Shown here piece after piece: positions 6,512-41,893 of a stretch of 46,681 nt of DNA. Every line of letters starts with the position of its first letter. Position 1 is the stretch's first letter. Both the position numbers and the translations under genes were made by a program. This DNA comes from Candidatus Sumerlaeota bacterium. Lineage in GTDB: Bacteria > Sumerlaeota > Sumerlaeia > MWCT01 > JAUWMI01. The DNA lies in the NCBI GenBank assembly GCA_030613245.1, contig JAUWMI010000034.1, positions 1 through 46,681 of the forward strand, given 5' to 3'. Below the pieces are notes generated by a model. It was given only the letters and a program-made list of their open reading frames with translations. It had not been told where the DNA came from and made no database searches.

Positions 6512-7915
6512 ATGCGACAAAAAAGAAGAATTTGCATTGTTGGATTAACTGCACTCGCGCTCCTGTTATCAGCAATGGCGAGTGCACAGACGGTCACAGC
6601 AGGCGGCGGTGGCGATTTTGACACGCTAAGTGCAGCAATAACCAGCTTTCGCTCAGGCGGTTCGAATGCCGGGAATGCCGACCCGAATGTGATCAACCTG
6701 CTGGATGCAAGCTACGACGATACACTTCCTACAATTGACGTGCAGCTCACGATCAACGGCCGCACGGGCCGCTCGACTGTAATGGTGACAGAGGCGATGT
6801 ATTCTGCCAACGCGATCCTGGTGTCGCCACCGGCCGGCCAGGAGGTGGTCTTTAACGACCTCATCTTGATTCCGTCTAGCGCCCACGGTGGCAATTTCAT
6901 TAGCAGCGGCAGCGGTGAGGGCACTATAACCCTTAATAACTGCATTCTCTCGGAAAATTACAGTGCCGCGCCTGCGAGCCTGGATGGGCTGACGGCTCCA
7001 GCTGGTTCACCCACCCAGGTCATGATGGACGATGCCCTGGTCTGCTATGGCACGTATACTAATAAGGTGATCAACCTCAACAACACCATCATCACTGCAG
7101 TGAACGGACCAAGTGCGAACCCTGAAGGCATCTGGCTTAGTGGGTCAGGCATTACCCTCAACGTCGGGCCAGGCTGCGTCATCTCATTTATCGGTGACCG
7201 GGCAATTTCCGCAAATGGGTCAAACAATGTCAACCTGATCGGCACAAAAGAAGAACCGATTCTCATTTATACGAACAATACAAATGACGACCCGGGTACA
7301 GCAGGAGATTGCGGCGGCATTGCCAAGTTCGACAGCGGCGGAACACTCGAAATGCAGTACGTGATTTGTGATTCCAACCTCAACGATGCGGTGACGGGCG
7401 AAGGCGAGTGGGACTCGGTCACAATCAGCAACTGTATCTTTGCCAACAACACCGACTGCGGGATTGACTTTGTGATTGGACCTTCAGGCTCCTTTACCAT
7501 TTCCGACTGTACGTTTTTTAACAACGCGACAAAGCAGCTGGAGGCGGAGAATCCGACGAATCCGATCACTTTTTTTAATACGATCTTTGCAGGCGCGGGG
7601 AAAACCGGGATCAACCTGCTCACTGCAGGGACGATCAACCTGAGCCGCAGCGCGCTGGTGACCGCGGGACCAAATGCCCTGAGCGTGGCTACGCAAGGCG
7701 AAGGCGCGATTAATATAACGGACGTGATTGGCGCGGATCCGGAATTCGTATCCACCGCATTCCTGGTTAGTGGGGCAGTGAATGACGATTTTCTGGACGT
7801 AGACTCGTCGGCCTACTCCGCAGCTGCAGTTGGGAATCAGCCGCTGGCTGGTGGTGCAGACTATGTCGGCCCACCCCCAACCGCAGCTCAAGGCGTTTGG
7901 ATGCTGTATCAGTAA
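6512..7915 (+). CDS. Secreted beta-helix-like protein
   Basis: A 467-residue exported protein. A Sec signal peptide (MRQKRRICIVGLTALALLLS followed by AMASAQ) ends near residue 26. Mature sequence opens with VTAGGGGDFDTLSAAITSFR, the typical start of secreted right-handed parallel beta-helix (pectin-lyase-like) proteins. The body is rich in short Asn/Ile/Gly strands such as ITLNNCILSEN, VTISNCIFANN and FTISDCTFFNN, consistent with beta-helix rungs. No catalytic residues of a known lyase or glycosidase were recognised. It lacks the tandem C-terminal domain found on the large secreted proteins downstream. The start has a strong site (GGAGAGGAGGGGG, 6497-6508), and a strong terminator follows at 7965. 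Confidence 0.8.
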   Translation: MRQKRRICIVGLTALALLLSAMASAQTVTAGGGGDFDTLSAAITSFRSGGSNAGNADPNVINLLDASYDDTLPTIDVQLTINGRTGRSTVMVTEAMYSANAILVSPPAGQEVVFNDLILIPSSAHGGNFISSGSGEGTITLNNCILSENYSAAPASLDGLTAPAGSPTQVMMDDALVCYGTYTNKVINLNNTIITAVNGPSANPEGIWLSGSGITLNVGPGCVISFIGDRAISANGSNNVNLIGTKEEPILIYTNNTNDDPGTAGDCGGIAKFDSGGTLEMQYVICDSNLNDAVTGEGEWDSVTISNCIFANNTDCGIDFVIGPSGSFTISDCTFFNNATKQLEAENPTNPITFFNTIFAGAGKTGINLLTAGTINLSRSALVTAGPNALSVATQGEGAINITDVIGADPEFVSTAFLVSGAVNDDFLDVDSSAYSAAAVGNQPLAGGADYVGPPPTAAQGVWMLYQ

Positions 7916-8916: not shown

Positions 8917-11286
8917 TCAGGGTAAGGCTGGAAGTTCGAGGGTCTCGATTGTAGCGCGGTCGAGGATGAGGGTCGCGGTTGGTGCATCTTCGGGTGAAAA
9001 GTTGAGTATGTCGAAGGAAACAATTAGCCCTTTGCCAACGCAATTGGCTGGAGGCAAGAAATAGAGCCGGTCATAGGTAGTGTTTGTGGTGCCTGGGGAA
9101 TTTGCTCCATCGCCTGAGCTTGAGATTTCGAGGGTGCGCGCGGCTTGCATATTCGCGGTGTTGAACCGTAGGCGCATCTGCGGCACACGACTTCGCTCAG
9201 TTTCGTCTGTTCGCACCTCAAACGTCCCGCGATACAGACGATCCGCTTCAACAATTATATCTACTCCATCGCTATGCCAGAACCCGAACGTATTCGTGTT
9301 TGTCGCTGATCGAAGATGGAGCGCTCCCTCATCCCAGATAAACTCAGGATCAGTAAATGCAAATGTACCATCACCGGGGAACCAGAATTCCTGACTCGTC
9401 TCAAAATCATAGCTCCAGGTGATTGTCGTAGATCCATCCAGCGTATCCAGTCTGAAGCGCTCAACCAGTACGCTCTCCAGACAGAGTTCTGCCCATGCTG
9501 CATCGTAAGGGTTAAAGTTGAGCAGGTCAAAGGCAAGCATACAAAAGTCATCATTAGCTGGCGGGACGAAATAAAGGTCGTAAGTTGTCCCCTCGGGTGT
9601 AGGCGATGCGCCGCCGTCGCCATTGCTATCAATGGTAATGCAATCCGCCTGTTGAAAGTTTCTGGAATTCACGCGCAGACGAATCTGCGGCACAATTTCC
9701 GGCTGCGCCATATCAGTCGAAACCGTAAACCGCGCGCGATAAAGATACCCTTCGCTCACCGGAATAGCATTTCCCGGACTAACCCAGAAGCCGAAGGTGT
9801 TCATATTGTTCTGCGAAATCAATTTCAGGCTTCCCGGCTCAAACACCCACTCCGGCGCCGAAAATACCTCCGCTGTACCAGTTGTCCATCCTTCGTCGTC
9901 CGTGATGAAATCATATATAGCAATATAGGCAGTGCCGATGAATTCATCAGCCCCGATATCAAAGTCTGAGCCGTCTCCGCGTGGTTCGGCGATACTATCG
10001 TAGCCTCTTGGATCGCCATCAAAATCCTGGGTTAGGTCGCTAACGTAGCAGCCCGCATCGATGCATAAAGAGGTCGGCTTCAGATGGAAATCACCGTTGT
10101 CAGGGTCAACTAATTGGGGATCAGAGGAAATATTTCCGGTTCCTCCCCCGGTCCAATCCTGAATGCAACTGTATGAAGGCGTTGAGCAACCATCAAGTTG
10201 GGCATCTGATAAGGCAGTATTTTGCCAGATAATACAGTTTCTGATGGTGCCATTGCAACCGATGAGCCCACCGCCCTGGCCAGTCCCCGAAACTGTGTTG
10301 CCGTAAATGGTATTATTCTGGATTGTACCGTCACACCCGACGAGCCCAGCACCAGTGCCGTACATGCCCGACACCCAGTTTCCAGAAATTATATTGTTCT
10401 GAATGGTGCCGTTGCAATTATAGAAACCGCCGCCCACACCATTCTGAATTCCATTACTGTAATTTTCTAAGACCCTATTGTTCTTGATTGTGCCATCACA
10501 GCCGTTAAGTCCTCCGCCGGCGCAGACATATGCATGCGCTCTGTTTCGCTTGATGGTATTGTTCTGAATAGCACCGTCGCAGTCGTACAGCCCGCCGCCC
10601 CATTGTGCCGAGTTGCTGGAGATGGTATTGTCCTGAATCATGCCGTTACAATTGTATAGCGCGCCGCCCCGTCGTGCCGAGTTGCCTGAGATAGTATTGT
10701 TCTTGATGCTGCCGTCGCAGTTGTAAAGCCCGCCGCCCTCGGAATTTGAATAAGATGAGTTACCCGAGATAGTATTGTTCTGAATGGTGCCGTCGCAATC
10801 GTAGAGCCCGCCACCATATTCAGCCTTGTTGCCAGAGATGGTATTGTTCTGAATCGTAGCGGGTGTGCCGAAGGCACTGATTCCACCGCCTCTGGTAGCC
10901 CTACCGTTAGTGAGAGTAAAACCGGATAGGACGCAAGGGGGTTTGGCTCTTGCCCAGAACCGCACGACGGGGCCAGTTCTTTGCCCATTTATGATGGTGC
11001 TGGCAACAACATCGGGGTCCGTTGGGTCGGTGGAGCGAAGGATGATGTTCTTGCCCGGAAAGTAGATGTTCTCATAATAGGTACCCGGCGAGACGATGAT
11101 TTCGTCCCCGTCAGCGGATGCGTCCATGGCTGCTTGAATTGTTGAATAATCTTGAGGAACCTTAATTACCGCTGCAGGGGATACCAGGGAGAAGCCAAGG
11201 AAGCAGATTAGCGCTAGAAGAATTGGTATTTGGAGCAAAGCCGGTTTGCATATTACCAATCGGCTCTGAGAACGAAGCTTCTGCAT
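8917..11286 (-). CDS. Secreted Cys-ladder beta-helix protein with tandem C-terminal domains
   Basis: A 789-residue exported protein. The signal peptide (ILLALICFLGFSLVSPAA) ends near residue 39. Next is a parallel beta-helix entry region (KVPQDYSTIQAAMDASADGD, IIVSPGTYYENI), as in DUF1565/polymorphic outer-membrane-type proteins. Residues ~150-355 are eight irregular repeats of 23-28 residues of the form GGGLYDCDGTIQNNTISGN, each with one Cys at the same place (C164, 190, 213, 236, 263, 291, 318, 344). A short region with FDIGADEF follows. From ~456 to the end are two copies of the ~160-residue domain shared with the neighbouring proteases (motifs [42 protein letters not shown]). The start is ATG 11286: GAGGGGG lies 7 nt upstream, so the more distal TTG at 11301 is rejected. 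The function is unknown; binding or cell-surface display is plausible. Confidence 0.82.
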   Translation of the reverse strand: MQKLRSQSRLVICKPALLQIPILLALICFLGFSLVSPAAVIKVPQDYSTIQAAMDASADGDEIIVSPGTYYENIYFPGKNIILRSTDPTDPDVVASTIINGQRTGPVVRFWARAKPPCVLSGFTLTNGRATRGGGISAFGTPATIQNNTISGNKAEYGGGLYDCDGTIQNNTISGNSSYSNSEGGGLYNCDGSIKNNTISGNSARRGGALYNCNGMIQDNTISSNSAQWGGGLYDCDGAIQNNTIKRNRAHAYVCAGGGLNGCDGTIKNNRVLENYSNGIQNGVGGGFYNCNGTIQNNIISGNWVSGMYGTGAGLVGCDGTIQNNTIYGNTVSGTGQGGGLIGCNGTIRNCIIWQNTALSDAQLDGCSTPSYSCIQDWTGGGTGNISSDPQLVDPDNGDFHLKPTSLCIDAGCYVSDLTQDFDGDPRGYDSIAEPRGDGSDFDIGADEFIGTAYIAIYDFITDDEGWTTGTAEVFSAPEWVFEPGSLKLISQNNMNTFGFWVSPGNAIPVSEGYLYRARFTVSTDMAQPEIVPQIRLRVNSRNFQQADCITIDSNGDGGASPTPEGTTYDLYFVPPANDDFCMLAFDLLNFNPYDAAWAELCLESVLVERFRLDTLDGSTTITWSYDFETSQEFWFPGDGTFAFTDPEFIWDEGALHLRSATNTNTFGFWHSDGVDIIVEADRLYRGTFEVRTDETERSRVPQMRLRFNTANMQAARTLEISSSGDGANSPGTTNTTYDRLYFLPPANCVGKGLIVSFDILNFSPEDAPTATLILDRATIETLELPALP

Positions 11287-11414
11287 TTTAATCCCCCTCA
11301 AAAAGCCTGATTCTTGGGAATTCGCTTCTCCAGATTTCTTATTTCACTGCTCCCAAACAGAATCAAGTTTTTTCGCAGATAATCTGAATGGCGAGTGTGA
11401 GAGGAAAACCAGTA

Positions 11415-11436
11415 GGGGCACGCTGCAGCGTGCCCC
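11415..11436. repeat. Perfect 22-bp palindrome, GTAGGGGCACGC type
   Basis: The 22-bp palindrome has GGGGCACGC arms and a TGCA centre, flanked by GTA and TTTAC. It lies between the truncated matrixin gene and the beta-helix gene. The sequence after it (AACTTGTCCGCCGAAG) also follows the palindrome at 8862-8889, so the repeat and the 3' ends of the two genes are duplicated together. Confidence 0.75.
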
Positions 11437-11479
11437 TTTACGTGCGAAACTTGTCCGCCGAAGCTAAGGCGGAGGCGGA

Positions 11480-14400
11480 TCACGGTAAGGCTGGGGGTGA
11501 GAGAATTTCGATTATTGCCCGGTCGAGGATCAGGCTCGCGGTTGCGGCGTCTGCGGGGTTGAAGCTCAGTATGTCAAAGGAGATAAGTAAGTCTTCGCCG
11601 ACGCAGTTCGATGGTGGCAAGAAGTAGAGCCTGTCATATGTTGTGTTTGTGGTGCCCGGGGAATTTGCCCCGTCACCAATGCTTGAAATGCCGAAGGTGT
11701 GCGAGGCTTGAAAATTCCCGGTGTTATACCGCAGCCGCATCTCTGGAACCAGCGCCGGGTTGGTCACGTCGGTACGCACTTCGAATGTCCCCCGCTAGAG
11801 TTTGTTCGCCTCAATAGTTATATCCGCCGGATGGTTTCCCCAGAAGCCAAACGTATTCGTGTTGGTTATTGCCCGCAGCTCAAGCGCACCGCTAGAATAG
11901 ATATACTGCGGCGGGCCGAACGCTATCGGTGCGCCTCCGGTTGTCCAGCCGTCCTGGCTCAGCTCGAACGTGTAATCCTGAACAACTGTCGGAGTTGAGA
12001 GCGAATCCAGGGCAAAGCGATCAACAGTAACCGTATCCAGCGAAAGTTCTGCCGTTGCCGCATCGTTGGGATTAAAGTTAAGCAGGTCGAATGCAAGCAT
12101 AGCGGCAGTATCATTTGCCGGTGGCACAAAGTAGAGGTCGTAATCCGTGCCCGACGGAACGGGAGACGCACCGCCGGCACCCGCGCTCTCGATCGAGAGC
12201 ACATCATATTGCTGCAGATTCAGCGAGTTTGCGCGAAGGCGTATCTGCGGAACAAGTAGTTGATCCGTTATATCGGTCGAGACCGTGAACCGGGCGCGAT
12301 AGAGATAATCCGCATCCGCAGGGATTGCATCCTGTGGGCTCTGCCAGAAGCCGAACGTATTCGTATTCGTTGATGAGGTGATCTTCAGGTAGTCGGGTGC
12401 CCATGAGAAACCAGGCACACTAAAGGCAACCGGCGCGCTACCGCTGGTCCACTCCTCACGAACCGGGACAAAGTCAAAGACAATCTGCCACGGTGTAGGT
12501 GAGGGTGTGGGCGTTGGAGTCGGGGTAGCTGTGGTTGTTGGCGTAGGGGTTGGAGTTGGAGAACTAGTTGGCGACGGTGTCGGAGTTGGAGTTGGAGTAG
12601 ACGTCGGGCTAGCCGTAGGTGTAGCGGTCGGGGTTGGAGTCGGCGTTGGGGTAGCCGTAGGTGTTGGGGTCGGAGTAGGAGTAGGTGTTGAAGTAGCTTC
12701 TGTGAGCTCAAATGCCATATCCATGGATAGTCCCTCAAGACGATGTCCGGGCGGCCAGCGTAACTCTATCCAGGGTTCACCAACAGTCAAGCAAAGACTT
12801 CGGTCGTAACCGGTAGCGTTGAGAGTAGCTCCATCCCACTGGTAGCTTGCCCCGTCGCCGGTTCCGCTACTCATCCACAGAAACCAGCAGTAGGGCTGAC
12901 CCGGTTCCTTGTGTCCTTCAATGGAAATCCAAGCTTCAGAGACATTAACAGGGGGGACAAGATCCGCTTCGAAATACCAGAGAGGGAACCCCGCAAAAAT
13001 TTCTCCTGTGTCTGATTTACCAGGGTGAACCACGCGAGTTGCCAGCACAGTGCCAGTGTCAGGTACTCCTCCACCAGTATCTGGATAGAACTTGATGGTA
13101 TAATCAACATCCTTGTCGCACAGAGACCAGCCGCCATCAGAATCTGCGATTAAACCCCACCAGTGAACATCATGCATGGGTGCAGTAAGACCGGAGAAGT
13201 ATTCGTATACCACGTATGAACTTGCCAAATCGCTGACGGCTGCGGACCAAGAGCCGCCTGAATCATGACTATTTTGTCCATATAAGGTGTCGGAGGGACA
13301 CTCAAGTGGGTCGGGCGTTTCAGTTGATGAGGTTACTGCATCGTCGTTCCAGTGGAATTCGGAATTTTTCCAACCCCAGGCATAGTCGGGAGTGGGACTC
13401 GCAAATACCGCCTGAATATTGAGGAAATATTTGTTGCCTGCTTCCTGGGCCCATGGAATAGAAAGATCCTGGTCATAGACGTATTCATGCTCCCACTCTC
13501 CTGGTGGAGCATCCCACAGTGGCACAACACCGTACCATTCCTCTGTAAACTCAGTGCAGATCTCTTCCCAGATCAGGTCGCCTGGCATACTGTAAGGTGG
13601 ACCGGCGAGATATTCGTGCCAGCTGAGGATAAACGCAGACGGACGCATAGTGGGCGGCGGAACCGGGTTAGGCAAAAGATCCTCCCAGCCTATGTAAGAA
13701 CCCCACCAGCGGACATGAATAATGGGAAGTCCAGTGGTGCATTCCCAGTCATCGGCGACAATATAGTACGGGAATCCACCCTCCGAAGTCCAGGATGGTA
13801 CATCAAAACCATCTGTCATATTGGGTGGTTGTGACCATTTACGCTCTCCGCAGTCAATCTCTAAGACATATTGCCAGGGTCCGGGACAGGGATAACCGGA
13901 GAAGACCTGGGGTGCCACGAACAGCCAATGGACCCCTGGTCCCAGATAAGCTTGCACAGAGATCTCCTCACACGGGTCACCCATTGCGTAAGGGTCTAAA
14001 GATCCTATAACATCTGCACAATCGCCCGAACCAGGTGGGTTCGTTTCAACGAACCCTAGTATCACAGGAAATTCTGCCGTAACGGTAAGTGTGACGGTGG
14101 TGGGTTCAGTCAGCACTATTTCATACCAGTCCGTATCGCGTACGCTGCCATCCGCCCAGGCTAAGCCGCAAATGACATCTTGGCAAGCAACCTGAGAGAA
14201 GGTAGGTGTTGTCATGTTGCATCCGCCGTTGGTGTCGGCACCGCAGGGTTCATTCTCCATACTGGCCCCTGGTGGACATTCCACAGTACAAGTTGGAGTT
14301 GGTGTAGGTGTCGGTGTTGATGTACCGGTTGGAGTTGGCGTAGGTGTCGGTGTAGGGGATGTAGTGGTGGTTATGTACGCAATGATATTCTGAAGCAGAA

Positions 14401-15823
14401 GTTGGTTACTGCCATAAGTGATGGGATAGTCCGAGCCAGCACCAGAATCTTCCCATAAACTTGAGTCACTCACAATAACGACATTAGCTGCCCCGGCAGT
14501 GCCATTGACGGCTGCAAGAGCGTCATCTGCTCCCCCGCCGGTGGTAAGGTCTATAGCAGGAGCAACGATAGAAACCAGACGGCGCTGATAATCGACTCCA
14601 ATAGAAGAAATACCAGTGGTGACGTCGTGTGCTACGAAAGTACTAATTACGTGCCCACTTGCTTCTGAGGCTGATGAGGCAAACATTACTCCATAGGGTG
14701 CCGCAAGTAAATCGAGGTTGCTGACGAGTGCATCGCTACCACTTCCCCCGTCTGCCACGATGAGAAGACCGTTTCCATTATTGACAAAATTATGAATAGC
14801 TGTGATCTCACTGGTCGAAAAAGGTCCAGGGCTATTCTGAGTGTAGGGCTGTTTGAGAATCAATGCATTCAAGCCCGTGAGGTCTCCTGACTCGAAAGAA
14901 GACTTTTGTACAATGGTGTGTCCAGCTGCAATGATCGTTGCTCGAAACGTATCGAAGTCAGACCCAGTTGCCAAAAAGGCTGTAGAATCATAACCGTGTC
15001 GGTCATCCACACCAATTACCGCAGTTCCTGTTGGCGTCGGTGTTGGAGTTGCGGTCGCAGTTCCTGTCGGAGTAGGCGTAGGTGTCGCCGTTGATGTACC
15101 AGTTGGGGTCGGTGTAGGCGTAGGAGTCGGCGTAGCTGATGGCGTTGGCGTGGGACTTGGCGTTGGCGTTGGGGTTACCACAGCGCCATAAAGAAATTGT
15201 GCGCCGTTAATATCGTCCGAGTGCAGGGTTTGTTTCTTGGTCTCACCAGAGTTTATGTACCCATACATTGTCTTTTCCGCGTCGCCAAGGTCGTAAAGGT
15301 CTAACAACACCAAAGAATGGCCCGTCTCATGGGTCGCTACATTTTCTACATCCATTTTACCACTCTCACCGCTGGAAGACCATGTCCAGTCCTCTCCGTT
15401 GTAAATTATATCAGAGTCAGTGACCCAGGTTTCGGAAACATTCCAAGAATACCAATAGCTATTAATAGCTATTGTGCCACTGCCAGCTCCAGTGACGGTA
15501 GTCCAATTGGTTTCGCACCACACGTTTATATTTATACCATTATTTACGCCCCAATCAGCGGGCACATAGCTGCCAGTACCGCCATAGGTCCAATCTATTC
15601 CGCAGTAATTTTCCCACGTTTGATATGCAGTCTGAATGGCAGTAAACTCACTGGTAGTATCCGGAGTCCCGGTATTATCGATTCTAAAAGTTACCGGGAT
15701 GTCTGCAGAGCGCCATTTGACAGGACGGTTGTATGTGGGGTCATATTTAAGCAGGTAAGCAAAACTAGAGGCAACTAATAGAAAAGTCATGAGGAGCATA
15801 AAAGCTACAGTCTTAGATTTCAT
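11480..15823 (-). pseudogene. Secreted matrixin-type metalloprotease, multidomain, with in-frame TAG
   Basis: The gene reads 1342 codons from ATG 15823 to TAG at 11797-11795, then 105 more sense codons in the same frame to a stop at 11480. Layout: signal peptide (1-22); matrixin zinc protease domain with H165-E166-x-x-H169-x5-D175 ([11 protein letters not shown]) and Met-turn M186; Thr-Pro linker; a GATase/DUF4350-like region ([10 protein letters not shown]-type opening, [10 protein letters not shown]); second linker; a Cys-rich prepeptidase-C-terminal-like region (residues ~525-680); a further beta-rich region ([20 protein letters not shown]); third Thr-Pro linker; then from ~1112 two copies of the shared ~160-residue C-terminal domain. 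TAG falls in the second copy between ANKL and RGTFEVRTD, where other copies have LYR, so it replaces an invariant Tyr. Genuine genes here also end in TAG, so general recoding is unlikely. Either a recent nonsense mutation, a sequencing error or read-through explains it. A truncated but exported protease would still contain the catalytic domain. Confidence 0.8.
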
Positions 15824-15863
15824 CTCATTTCGCCCCTTTCTAATCCCAGCAGGTATCTTTATT

Positions 15864-16448
15864 TCATTTCTCTTGCTTATTAATAATTTCCTCTACGTTT
15901 TTCACAAAATCTTCCAGCGGTACTCTATATTCCTTCACTTCTCTGATCTTTAGTGTTTCCGGATCAGCCAGAATTTTCGCAGCACCTTTAATCATCTTCT
16001 TTGCGCTCTCTTTGTCTTCGATTATCGAAAATTTACCCTGGAAATCGGCGGTTACTTTGAAAATATCAATCTCTTTTTCTTTTTGGAGAAAAAGAAGGAC
16101 TTCTTCATCGACGTCAAACCTTGGGGTATCAGAGCGACCCATTCCAACTCCGGTACCGTCGCTTCTAGCTATTTCGCCGCCAGGATACTGTACTATTATA
16201 GATTTTTCCGCTTTACCTTTGACAGCTTTATCAATCTTTATAGTCACATCAGTAACAATGGCAGTCTTGTCCTTGTTCCAGTGGGAAGTCGTTTCAACTA
16301 CTTTTCCAGTAATTATATCCGTTGACTCCTTCACTAGCTTATCAAGGTCGTATTCCACCATTAAGGCCTGGCAGCTGAGTGTAGTGATCACAAAGAAAAA
16401 GACAATCAGGCCATAAGTACAGGGTAGATTTTTTTCTAAACAGCGCAT
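15864..16448 (-). CDS. Small secreted protein upstream of the matrixin protease
   Basis: A 194-residue exported protein. Hydrophobic segment ~11-29 ([20 protein letters not shown]) is a signal peptide. The mature part begins [20 protein letters not shown], followed by [21 protein letters not shown] and [14 protein letters not shown]. This beta-rich pattern (a surface exposed ITGKV strand, then KG and a GEEVLLFL-like strand) is one I recall as a hypothetical family often encoded beside matrixin genes; that link is recollection, not a search. The start is supported by AAGGAGGCGATCT just before ATG. It is 40 bp upstream of the matrixin gene on the same strand, so co-transcription is likely. Possible roles are inhibitor, chaperone or partner of the protease. 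Confidence 0.75.
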
Positions 16449-16834
16449 TTTAGATCGCCTCCTTCGTGGACTTTTTTGTATTTTTTTGGTGACTAAGAAC
16501 CCTTAATCCTTAAGCCAGAAAATGTAACAACGAATCTATTTTTCAAATTCTGCATTGTCCTATTTCCCCCTTTCTTCCGGCAAACTGTGCATACATTGAA
16601 AATAAGTGTCAAACGAAAAATTAATTCGGCAGACAAAAAGTAGGATTCGCGTTGCCTGGTTCGCGGGAGAGAAAAAAAATAGCAGCCCCCTTCCACTGCC
16701 TGACAAGAGAACATCATGTCTCCAGTGTACCGTCAACTCTGCAATGATGCATGTAACGCCGCCCGCAATCCCTCCTCTGTACATCGCTCTATGCAGATAC
16801 GGGTACCTGGAGCCCGCATCGCTTTAAAATAAGA

Positions 16835-17088
16835 GGCTCTTTGTCAAATGAGTTAGCGTTCTTTGATCGTAACAATCGTAACAATAGAAAAAGGTCGGCT
16901 GAATAGTAGGGGCGTTTAATTAAACGCCCCTACTCGTCCTGTTGGCTGGTGAAGAGGGAATACACAGCAGGCACATTACGTAATGAAGCACACATCCAAG
17001 CAACTGCCGTACTCCTGCCGAGATATGAAAACACTAAAGTTATTCAATGCATCAGAGGCTTTCTTGCTAACCTATCTGACAAAGAGCC
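16835..17088 (+). repeat. Complete MITE-like element (254 bp)
   Basis: The left end GGCTCTTTGTCAAATGAG (16835-) and right end, whose reverse complement is GGCTCTTTGTCAGATAGG, match at 20 of 23 positions when extended through GTTAGC. The interior carries the perfect 28-bp GTAGGGGCG/TTTAATTAAA palindrome (16906-16933). The element is the near-identical counterpart of 1-176. No obvious target duplication and no transposase. Other parts of the 16449-17230 gap show nothing beyond the palindrome at 17166. Confidence 0.85.
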
Positions 17089-17165
17089 AAATAAAAAATC
17101 AGGTAAAAGATTTTAAGTCTATCTCTTACCTGACGTGATCATTGTATCCAGTTTTTTTCAGCCAA

Positions 17166-17192
17166 GTAGAGCGTATTGTAATACGCCCCTAC
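17166..17192. repeat. GTAG...CCCCTAC palindrome, GCGTATTGTAATACGC type
   Basis: GCGTATTGTAATACGC with a CCCTAC right arm; the left arm is decayed (GTAGA). It is the same inner sequence class as 20742-20769. Confidence 0.65.
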
Positions 17193-17230
17193 TCAGTATC
17201 CCGCGGTTAGCTCAATTGATTTCGACTATA

Positions 17231-20200
17231 TCAATTAGGAATCGCGAGATAATCAATTGCAACGCTGTCCATGTAGATGGTGCCACCCTGCGCTGAGCTG
17301 AAGTCGAGCAGGTCAAGCGTCACGATGAACCCATCCTGTCCAGCCGTTGGCGAGCCGGGCAGCGCTGGCGTCTCGAAGTAGACGTCGTAGTCGATACCAC
17401 CGGTCGTTGGCATGGCTCCCGGACCGGTACCTTGGCTGTTCAGCTCCATGGTCTGCGTCATCTGGCCGTCTTCATTCTGGCAACGCAGTCTGCCCTGTGG
17501 CATGTCGTTTCGCGCCGCCTCAGTCGGGCACCTCAGCGTATATGTCGCCCGGTAGAGCTTATCCGCCACATATGTCAGCTCATTTGCCGTTCCGCTCGAC
17601 TGCCAGAATCCATAATTGCTGGCGTTAGCAACGGTGGACGTAATGGAGAGCGTGCCCGTGCCTGCTCCGCCTGAGGTAACTGGGCCAAACCCTACGTTGG
17701 TCACGAATCCCCAGTTGGAAAAGTCAGCTGAAGAGGTATACGTCTTTACTGCTGTGCCTGCTGCCGGATCTGGGAACCGCTCGACCGTAATCTGATCAAC
17801 ATAGTGGTTCCCATACTGCGCTGCGCTGAAGTCAAGCATGTCAAAGGCAACACCCAGGTTGCCGCTCACCACTGGCGCAAAGTAGCAGCTATATGTGCTC
17901 GTTGTTGGGTCAGCTGGCAAGGAGTTGCTTCCTGAGCCTGATGCGTTCACCACCTGTGTTGCGGACTCGAGCGATTGATCATGGATCCAGCGCATGCGGA
18001 ACTGCGGATTAAAAGACCAAGCAGCTTGACTGGAGGAGACCAGGTACCTTGCCCTGTACACATTACCCGCCACGTAAGCAATCTCCGTTGGCCCGTTCCA
18101 GAATCCCACACGGCTCGTTGAATCATTGGCTGAACTGATGCCCAACCGGCCACCAGTATAGCTTGACGATGCTCCGGAGAACCCCGAACCACTTAACCCC
18201 AGGAATCCCCAGCCCTCAACGGATGAATCAAACGTATATTGATTGACGAGTGTAGTTGTCGTTGGTGTCGCCGTTGGCGTCGGTGTCGGAGTTACTGTTC
18301 CTGTTGGAGTTGGCGTCGGAGTTGCGGTTGCAGTTCCTGTCGGGGTTGGTGTGGGCGTAGGAGTAGCCGGTGGGATGGGGTTGCCTTCCCATACAATGTA
18401 ATTGTGCTTGGATACGGTAGCATACACATTTCCATCAGTAGAAGGCGAAATGCTAAACACCGCCTTACCTTGAGAATCCGTCTTCTTGGTCAGGAAGAAC
18501 TCAGGCGAAACGGAATCTTTCGGCTTCTCGATTGTCACTGTGACACCTTGCACAGCCCCACCGGCATCATTCACCGTAACAGTATAGGAGGTAGTGGCAA
18601 CAGTAATTGGATTGGGGCCGGTAACTTGTGTAAAAGATATGGGAGTAGCCGTGCGAATCTGCATGGAGGGGTCGCCAAAAACACAATATATATACGCATT
18701 ACTTCTTGGATATTGTAACTGACTCGGCTTGGTTGCCTTATAATGTTTTAGAGTGGCGGCATGGGCAAAATTACTCACCGCGGAAATGCAATAGGTGCCC
18801 ACATCGAATATCTGTTTAAAAATCTGGCGGTCATATTCGTGATTTGCAAGACAGCAAGAGACATCAGTGGCACCGAGATGTGCCACGGCGCCTTTACTAT
18901 TGCCACTGTTACGCAGGAGCCAGCGCTCACCTATGCATTCCGTCTCATCAAATTTGTTGTTAAGACAAGAAATGCTGAATACCACTGGCGTGTAATCTCC
19001 ATTGTTGATGGAAATAACATCAGAATAATTGAAATATTGACCGCCTTTATTCCAATTGGTCCAGGCATCTTTACTTCCATGCCCCCGGTAATTGACAATG
19101 CCATAATGTGGCGAGGCAATATAGTTTACCACCTGGGAATCGGTGGCATAAGGCGAAGCGCCTCCATAAGCCTTGGTAAAGGTTGGGCCACCGAGGCTGT
19201 ACGCCGCGCTAGCAATAGAATTCTTGCAGGCCGTATATTTGCCTGAGTATCCTTGCCTGTGTGCCGCCAGTATCGAGCGGGTAAGCCAGTTATCCTGCGG
19301 AGGCGACTTTTCATACTTCATGATCTTGTCCAGAATATCAGTCAATTGAGAATCACTATCAGCAGGGATACGCCCGATAAAGAGGTCGGCATACTCATCA
19401 TTTCCCTTTACACAGGCGTATTTATAATCAGAAAGACCGATTCTATTGCCAGAACAGAAATAAGAATGCGTCTTCGGCACGATTTGAGCATAGTCGCCGA
19501 TAAAGAGAACAAATATGTCCCAACAGGGATTTGCATTATAGTAACTTGTGATGTCATTTTGAATGTCTGTAGTGTTATTAGCAACGTCTCCGCCACTTCC
19601 TACGGTGCGAACCGTTACCTCATAGCCCTGGCGTCGCTTCCAGAATTTAAAATCTCCGAGTCTGGCATTAGTTTCCAGACCCTTTGCCACATAAATTCGG
19701 AATTTCTCTTTGTGGGTGGTCACTGGGGGAGGCAAGAGATTTTCAATAAAAGGGTAATTCTCAATCTGGCTCTGGTAGACATTATGCCATAGCTGCGTGC
19801 AAACAAAAGTTATCGGTGTGTCCCCACCCACCTGGTAATGATCAAACTGAACCTCGAAGTCCGCTAACACATCCATCGTCTGTGATCCTGGTTGGACAAA
19901 GAAAGGATAAAGCTCCACCACCGTCACACGGAGATGATGCCACTCATCAACCGAAGACTGAATGTCGGGGGTGATATAATAATCAAAAGGATAATAAGCG
20001 GTGCTCATATAATGAGTGTCATCTCGTTGGAAGGGCTCATAGTATTCCTCGCCTCTCGCCTTCTGATTGGGATAGATGGTATAGCCTGACGAAGTTACCT
20101 TATCATGCACTATAATACTTTCCATGGTCACAGTTGTAGCGTTAGACATTATTCCAAGATAAAGCCTGATCACCGGGACTCCACTCAACCCTAGGTCAAC

Positions 20201-20488
20201 GGTGGTTTGATACGCCCCTATACCCTCGCTGGTGCCATCGTCAGAGGTGGCAGGTAGATAAATCTGCTTATAGGTGTGACTATACGTGGTAATCTCATCT
20301 TCCCAGTAACCCGGTATCACCACATTGATAGTTGTTGTGTCGGTAGTGCTACTTAAAACATTAACTACCGGGGGAGTGCCGGCTGGAAAGCCAGTATTAA
20401 TCTCCCTCCAGATGGGCACGGCAAAAACATTAGCCGCGACGGCAAAGAAAATTAAACATGCGATAATAAAATTCTTGGAGTTTCTCAT
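17231..20488 (-). CDS. Secreted C25 (gingipain-like) cysteine protease with tandem C-terminal domains
   Basis: A 1085-residue exported protease. The signal peptide (FIIACLIFFAVAANVFA) ends near residue 23. An N-terminal propeptide-like beta region (to ~250) precedes the C25 catalytic domain (~260-620). Its catalytic dyad is H470 in IVNYRGHGS and C508 in VVFSISCLNN, with the subdomain sequences LFIGDYAQIVPK and ADLFIGRIPADSDSQ typical of gingipains. An Ig-like module (TVTVNDAGGAVQGVTVTIEK) follows, then a Thr-Pro linker (~720-745). From ~748 to the end are two diverged copies of the ~160-residue domain shared with the matrixin and beta-helix proteins (GFW, YRARYLVSS, FRMRW, FDMLDFS). Gingipain relatives in Bacteroidetes use a type IX sorting domain; that domain is not seen here, and the tandem domain may serve instead. 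AAGGAAGTGA supports the start. Confidence 0.88.
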   Translation of the reverse strand: MRNSKNFIIACLIFFAVAANVFAVPIWREINTGFPAGTPPVVNVLSSTTDTTTINVVIPGYWEDEITTYSHTYKQIYLPATSDDGTSEGIGAYQTTVDLGLSGVPVIRLYLGIMSNATTVTMESIIVHDKVTSSGYTIYPNQKARGEEYYEPFQRDDTHYMSTAYYPFDYYITPDIQSSVDEWHHLRVTVVELYPFFVQPGSQTMDVLADFEVQFDHYQVGGDTPITFVCTQLWHNVYQSQIENYPFIENLLPPPVTTHKEKFRIYVAKGLETNARLGDFKFWKRRQGYEVTVRTVGSGGDVANNTTDIQNDITSYYNANPCWDIFVLFIGDYAQIVPKTHSYFCSGNRIGLSDYKYACVKGNDEYADLFIGRIPADSDSQLTDILDKIMKYEKSPPQDNWLTRSILAAHRQGYSGKYTACKNSIASAAYSLGGPTFTKAYGGASPYATDSQVVNYIASPHYGIVNYRGHGSKDAWTNWNKGGQYFNYSDVISINNGDYTPVVFSISCLNNKFDETECIGERWLLRNSGNSKGAVAHLGATDVSCCLANHEYDRQIFKQIFDVGTYCISAVSNFAHAATLKHYKATKPSQLQYPRSNAYIYCVFGDPSMQIRTATPISFTQVTGPNPITVATTSYTVTVNDAGGAVQGVTVTIEKPKDSVSPEFFLTKKTDSQGKAVFSISPSTDGNVYATVSKHNYIVWEGNPIPPATPTPTPTPTGTATATPTPTPTGTVTPTPTPTATPTTTTLVNQYTFDSSVEGWGFLGLSGSGFSGASSSYTGGRLGISSANDSTSRVGFWNGPTEIAYVAGNVYRARYLVSSSQAAWSFNPQFRMRWIHDQSLESATQVVNASGSGSNSLPADPTTSTYSCYFAPVVSGNLGVAFDMLDFSAAQYGNHYVDQITVERFPDPAAGTAVKTYTSSADFSNWGFVTNVGFGPVTSGGAGTGTLSITSTVANASNYGFWQSSGTANELTYVADKLYRATYTLRCPTEAARNDMPQGRLRCQNEDGQMTQTMELNSQGTGPGAMPTTGGIDYDVYFETPALPGSPTAGQDGFIVTLDLLDFSSAQGGTIYMDSVAIDYLAIPN

Positions 20489-41807: not shown

Positions 41808-41849
41808 ATACGTTAGTTTACGAGGACCTATACGTTATGCATAGAAACA

Positions 41850-41893
41850 GCCCCGAAGGGGCCATATATAGAAGCCCAGTGCGCAGCACTGGG
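41850..41893. repeat. Two REP-like hairpins after recO
   Basis: GCCCC/GGGGC with loop GAA (41850-41862) and CCCAGTGC/GCACTGGG with loop GCA (41875-41893). Pairs of this look occur between genes in many Bacteroidota/Verrucomicrobia-like genomes (recollection). They may end recO transcription. Confidence 0.6.

Follow-up and report, generated by a model that had tools for sequence, protein, structure and literature searches.

Some sixty predicted secreted proteins of one Candidatus Sumerlaeota genome share one common handle, a C-terminal tandem pair of homologous domains of about 160 residues each, and this handle would predict where those proteins go. The pair is read here as a swappable tether that binds a single conserved ligand, probably a glycan, of the surface or matrix, and we put the probability of this reading at about one half. 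The DNA from which the analysis started, here called the window, is a contig of 46,681 nucleotides (C31) in an assembly of 4.29 Mb and 97 contigs. To our knowledge, very few Sumerlaeota have been cultured, and the papers searched do not mention a domain of this kind in the group.

Six homologous units in the window

The first-pass annotation had reported six related units of about 160 residues at the C-termini of three neighbouring ORFs, which encode a beta-helix protein, a matrixin and a C25-peptidase protein. When the ORF translations were read and aligned, all six units proved to be homologous and to lie where they had been placed, and the HMM matches agree with the alignment (Table 1). Copies in the same position in the beta-helix and matrixin proteins are 60–63% identical, copy 1 and copy 2 within or between these two proteins 42–47%, and the C25 copies 28–33% identical to the other four and to each other. 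Recurrence of the unit is far beyond chance, with 135 matches in the genome, where E values reach 1e-115 for the query's own match and 1e-89 for other copies.

The greater divergence of the C25 copies had been taken to mean that the units are not just a local duplication, and this is borne out: these copies belong to a second tail subfamily, which is found on about ten other proteins too. A Thr-Pro linker had been described in front of every pair; the beta-helix protein has none, and genome-wide a linker precedes 18 of 64 pairs. The tail is indeed common to the three neighbours, but they are a small sample of about 63 such proteins.

Each of the three genes has the two copies ascribed to it. 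The matrixin ORF, however, does not run down to position 11480 as had been annotated, but ends at residue 1342, where an in-frame TAG cuts copy 2. This codon stands in the place of the Tyr in the "LYR" of other copies and is one base from a Tyr codon; the remainder of the gene (11480–11794) is intact and in frame behind the stop. Recoding was rejected, as there is no indication of it: TAG is an ordinary stop here, terminating 230 of 686 genes in this genome. The codon is either a nonsense mutation or a consensus or assembly error.

Table 1. Tail copies, heads and an alternative tail in the window, with strand and the evidence for each
Feature	Position	Strand	Evidence
Copy 1, beta-helix protein (8917–11286)	9445–9918	-	HMM match, 205 bits; alignment; AlphaFold pLDDT 95.9 for the pair
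Copy 2, beta-helix protein, ending 3 residues before the stop	8929–9414	-	HMM match, 209 bits; strand order as in copy 1
Copy 1, matrixin (ORF 11795–15823)	12005–12481	-	HMM match, 210 bits
Copy 2, matrixin, N-terminal part (profile 1–60) as far as the in-frame stop	11798–11977	-	HMM and reading of the ORF
In-frame TAG inside matrixin copy 2, at a conserved Tyr position	11795–11797	-	Sequence
Copy 2, matrixin, part behind the TAG (profile 62–160)	11492–11794	-	HMM, 122 bits
Copy 1, C25-peptidase protein (17231–20488), second tail subfamily	17765–18241	-	HMM match, 148 bits
Copy 2, C25-peptidase protein, ending 1 residue before the stop	17237–17743	-	HMM match, 146 bits; own AlphaFold model, pLDDT 89.3
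Head, beta-helix protein: Sec-like signal peptide; Beta_helix/NosD; weak choice_anch_Q match adjoining the tail	9919–11286	-	Profile matches
Head, matrixin: Peptidase_M10, DUF7901, Thr-Pro linkers	12482–15823	-	Profile matches
Head, C25 protein: Peptidase_C25, Thr-Pro linker	18242–20488	-	Profile matches
Beta-helix-like secreted protein that lacks the pair and has the alternative short tail ...GVWMLYQ (codons 7898–7912)	6512–7915	+	Sequence

Other features of the same DNA were recorded alongside. DUF7901 in the matrixin head (residues 662–834, window about 13320–13840) is common to another pair-bearing protein of unknown function (L053:6339–7844). Between the matrixin and C25 genes, the minus strand encodes a 194-residue, secreted-looking protein (15864–16448) with no Pfam match over the cut-off. 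An Rfam match to Acido-Lenti-1 RNA (RF01687) lies on the minus strand at 41849–41893, with 40 bits for a gathering score of 37. PorU identity was considered for the C25 protein and rejected, the score being 55.9 bits against a cut-off of 420.

Extent, pairing and position of the tail in the genome

An HMM was built from the six window copies and iterated over the genome, which gave 135 copies in 73 ORFs; a single copy used as the query gave 132 matches. Two matches fall in 62 ORFs, and in 58 ORFs they form an adjacent pair; in C7 7836–10922, the two copies are non-adjacent. A head of at least 100 residues is present in about 63 proteins. Eleven ORFs have a single match: about half of them are the split matrixin or fragments at contig edges, and five appear to be true single-copy tails. 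Between the last copy and the end of the ORF lie 0–6 residues in every one of the 71 ORFs that match strongly; contig edges or the TAG account for three of the ends. Across 1.2 Mb of the genome, the pair was found in 21 of 207 predicted secreted proteins versus 2 of 572 other genes (Fisher p = 6e-11).

G000 contigs C2, C13, C56, C72, C74 and C87 end inside the tail domain, as if near-identical tail copies had broken the assembly at those points. Joins of head and tail that lie near contig ends within tails are to be treated with care.

Heads and the exchange of tails

A signal-peptide-like N-terminus was called by a crude hydropathy rule in 60 of the 63 proteins whose heads reach 100 residues or more; of the remaining three, two begin at a contig edge and the other does not satisfy the charge rule. 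The heads have very different folds and range in size from 81 to 2502 residues. Their Pfam matches include beta-helix/NosD, subtilase, FG-GAP, fn3, carboxypeptidase-regulatory, LVIVD, C25, matrixin and M28 domains, among others; most are not carbohydrate-active, and a few act on carbohydrate (polysaccharide deacetylase). The earlier suggestion of a common C-terminal module on proteins with different heads is supported. A Sec signal peptide combined with one and the same module at the very C-terminus of heads that are unrelated, as marks a general C-terminal sorting or anchor module, was found in this genome, and for a genome of family f14 this refers to the tails only.

Choice-of-anchor models, so named by NCBI, describe domains that stand beside different kinds of C-terminal anchors. 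NCBIfam models of this kind gave 19 matches among the 63 heads (16 to Q, 2 to B and 1 to E).

Heads that are 35–75% identical on tails below 40% identity were found in 22 protein pairs, which mostly involve two proteins, C42 44595 and C40 34174, and so amount to about five separate exchanges. The heads of C13 68623 and C92 24116, for example, are 75% identical over 260 residues and their tails 26%. Where tails are at least 60% identical, 148 of 174 protein pairs are without detectable head similarity. Judged from these comparisons, tail and head are independent of each other, with related tails on unrelated heads and related heads carrying different tails. In a tree of 55 copies, which has modest support values, first and second copies form strongly separated lineages, with 8 label changes versus about 18 after shuffling; the pair is thus old and is passed on as one unit.

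A second, short tail

W-x-[LIM]-[YF]-x is the ending of many secreted proteins that lack the pair, among them the one at 6512–7915 in the window. Such an end was found in 16 of 207 predicted secreted proteins versus 3 of 572 others in the same 1.2 Mb of the genome (p = 2e-7), and for the strict form, 15 cases were observed versus about 0.2 expected by chance. The motif also terminates proteins in other families of the class. Related heads can bear either ending: C65 68563, with the pair, and C65 82366, which ends in ...RWTLYE, are 68% identical over 277 residues, and weaker cases of related heads with the pair or the short tail follow the same pattern. None of the 207 secreted proteins has both, which is not significant by itself (p = 0.17). 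The short tail is possibly a second sorting tag.

Distribution in other genomes

Profile matches were found in 32 of 291 searched genomes, all within the class of the window, and those with names are Candidatus Sumerlaeota or BRC1; outside the class, 0 of 252 searched genomes matched. This shows the domain to be restricted to one class among the genomes searched. Pair-rich genomes occur in several families of the class, and other genomes of the class have no match or one; most of family f6 is pair-poor, as are genomes G009, G011 and G014. Among 33 ORFs that could be read to a stop, at loci mostly from relatives with a few from the own genome, the last copy lies no more than 11 residues from the stop in 31. 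It is also terminal in all complete proteins sampled from the f14 genome. In 400 kb of a genome of family f9, 3 of 5 proteins have the pair in an internal or N-terminal position: in two it is flanked by a head-like segment on either side, the two segments being similar, and in the third it follows the signal peptide immediately. These pairs weigh against a strict C-terminal export signal and favour binding.

Known sorting systems and the sorting-signal alternative

Searches for SprA (PF14349) gave no match in the own genome or in any same-class genome searched, and found it in genome G040. Por_Secre_tail (TIGR04183) likewise had no match in the own genome, the same search giving 82 in G040, which has SprA. 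With neither present in the own genome, identity of the pair with the T9SS C-terminal domain (CTD) was rejected, and a T9SS connection, which the first-pass annotation had proposed to check, is not supported. The exosortase model (PF09721) had no match in the own genome and is present in 4 other genomes of the class, so PEP-CTERM was rejected for this genome. Secretins are found throughout the class, with 10 matches in this genome, and a type II-like exit may be available.

The main alternative to the tether, possible though doubtful, is that the pair is a sorting or export signal for a dedicated outer-membrane machine, with T9SS-like logic in a genome without T9SS, and that it may be cleaved after export. 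Such a signal would fit the N-terminal signal peptides, the choice-of-anchor heads and the position at the very C-terminus, both in this genome and in the complete f14 proteins, as well as the swap with the W-x-[LIM]-[YF] tail on related heads; nor was any T9SS or exosortase match found that would do the job. Two folded CBM-like domains of about 330 residues together are, however, big for a signal, no machine that might act as its partner was found, and the non-terminal pairs of the f9 genome speak against it. Were the pair such a signal, it would point to an export system that has yet to be described, in a lineage lacking T9SS and exosortase matches. It is also conceivable, although we consider it rather improbable, that Sumerlaeota have their own sorting pathway for secreted proteins, in which the pair and W-x-[LIM]-[YF]-x would serve as two interchangeable C-terminal tags, each recognised by a machine or surface receptor with no relation to T9SS, sortases or exosortases.

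Predicted fold, family and conserved residues

AlphaFold predicted the pair of the beta-helix protein with a mean pLDDT of 95.9 and a pTM of 0.92, and strand order is alike in its two halves. Copy 2 of the C25 protein, the most diverged copy in the window, was modelled alone with a pLDDT of 89.3. Foldseek placed the pair closest to a tandem CBM22 structure (4xup; E = 4e-10, probability 1.00) and C25 copy 2 alone closest to CBM4 (1gu3; E = 2e-5, probability 1.00). The predicted models thus have a beta-sandwich fold of the carbohydrate-binding module (CBM) type, which the first-pass annotation had named as its main alternative to surface docking.

By sequence, the window copies have no match in Pfam or NCBIfam, in keeping with the initial view that the domain is unclassified. 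Any match to CBM_4_9 (Pfam PF02018) at E up to 0.1 was seen for 4 of 57 pairs in the genome; one of them passes, marginally, at 27.9 versus 25.9 bits, and none of the window copies reaches the gathering cut-off. A search of PDB by sequence gave one chance-level match (E = 0.31). The unit is thus an unclassified family with a CBM4/CBM22-like predicted fold.

Three residues do not vary in 50 copies of less than 65% mutual identity, namely W14, W50 and R88 in the numbering of C25 copy 2; R90, Y67 and D147 are conserved at 96–98%. Mean identity per column over these copies is 34%. Such a near-invariant W/R/R/Y/D set would fit one ligand or site common to all copies, but its polar residues could instead form a structural salt-bridge network.

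That the pair is an ordinary CBM, targeting secreted proteins to environmental polysaccharides, seems unlikely. The predicted fold, the one CBM_4_9 match over the cut-off and the few carbohydrate-active heads would agree with this, but most heads are of other kinds. CBMs on carbohydrate-active enzymes also vary in number and place, where here a fixed, mostly terminal pair is found, and environmental targeting would be expected to diversify a putative site that is almost invariant. Beta-sandwich caps at C-termini are common, and the model of the pair as a unit of two domains is a confident one, but a ligand-free structural cap or assembly domain that stabilises or dimerises secreted proteins is highly improbable for a module common to heads of such different fold and size, the more so as related heads manage without it by using the other tail.

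Proposed role as a tether

In the reading that we prefer, the proteins would take the Sec route, for which nearly all of those whose N-terminus is intact have a predicted signal peptide, and would then presumably leave by a general exporter; secretins are present. The pair would bind a single conserved ligand of the cell surface or matrix; we infer that binding is non-covalent, that the location is the surface and that the ligand is most likely a glycan, although we know of no surface glycan of these bacteria. The two ideas of the first-pass annotation, sorting or surface attachment and a carbohydrate-binding fold, can be compatible, because a CBM-like fold can serve as a tether. In favour of the tether are the predicted CBM-like fold and the internal and N-terminal pairs of the f9 genome, positions in which an export signal is rarely seen. 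One point against it is that simple binding does not call for the near-exclusive location at the very end of the protein that is found in most families. The genome itself holds natural controls, in the form of the same heads with either tail.

Comparison with known systems

Tandem CBM4/9 and CBM22 modules (PF02018; 1gu3, 4xup) resemble the pair in their beta-sandwich, predicted here, in a size of about 160 residues and in the possibility of a tandem arrangement. Unlike them, the family described here has nearly no profile matches, is not tied to glycoside hydrolases, forms a fixed C-terminal pair and has a near-invariant W/R/R/D/Y set.

The T9SS CTD (TIGR04183) likewise stands at the C-terminus of many secreted proteins that are unrelated to one another and begin with a signal peptide, and its substrates include beta-helix and protease heads, as here (compare PMC11969387). 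It is, however, one CTD of about 72 positions, whereas the tail described here consists of two CBM-like domains of about 160 residues. The tags of the PEP-CTERM/exosortase, LPXTG/sortase, myxosortase and rhombosortase systems share with the pair the slot behind choice-of-anchor heads; PEP-CTERM, LPXTG, myxosortase and rhombosortase tags are short and tripartite, with a transmembrane helix.

SLH domains, too, are folded repeats that sit at one terminus of numerous exported proteins, and SLH repeats tether proteins non-covalently to a surface polymer, the mode of attachment with which the proposed tether would compare. They differ in fold, being alpha-helical, and usually come in three copies where two are found here. 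If the pair is a tether, it would be a CBM-like analogue of SLH repeats.
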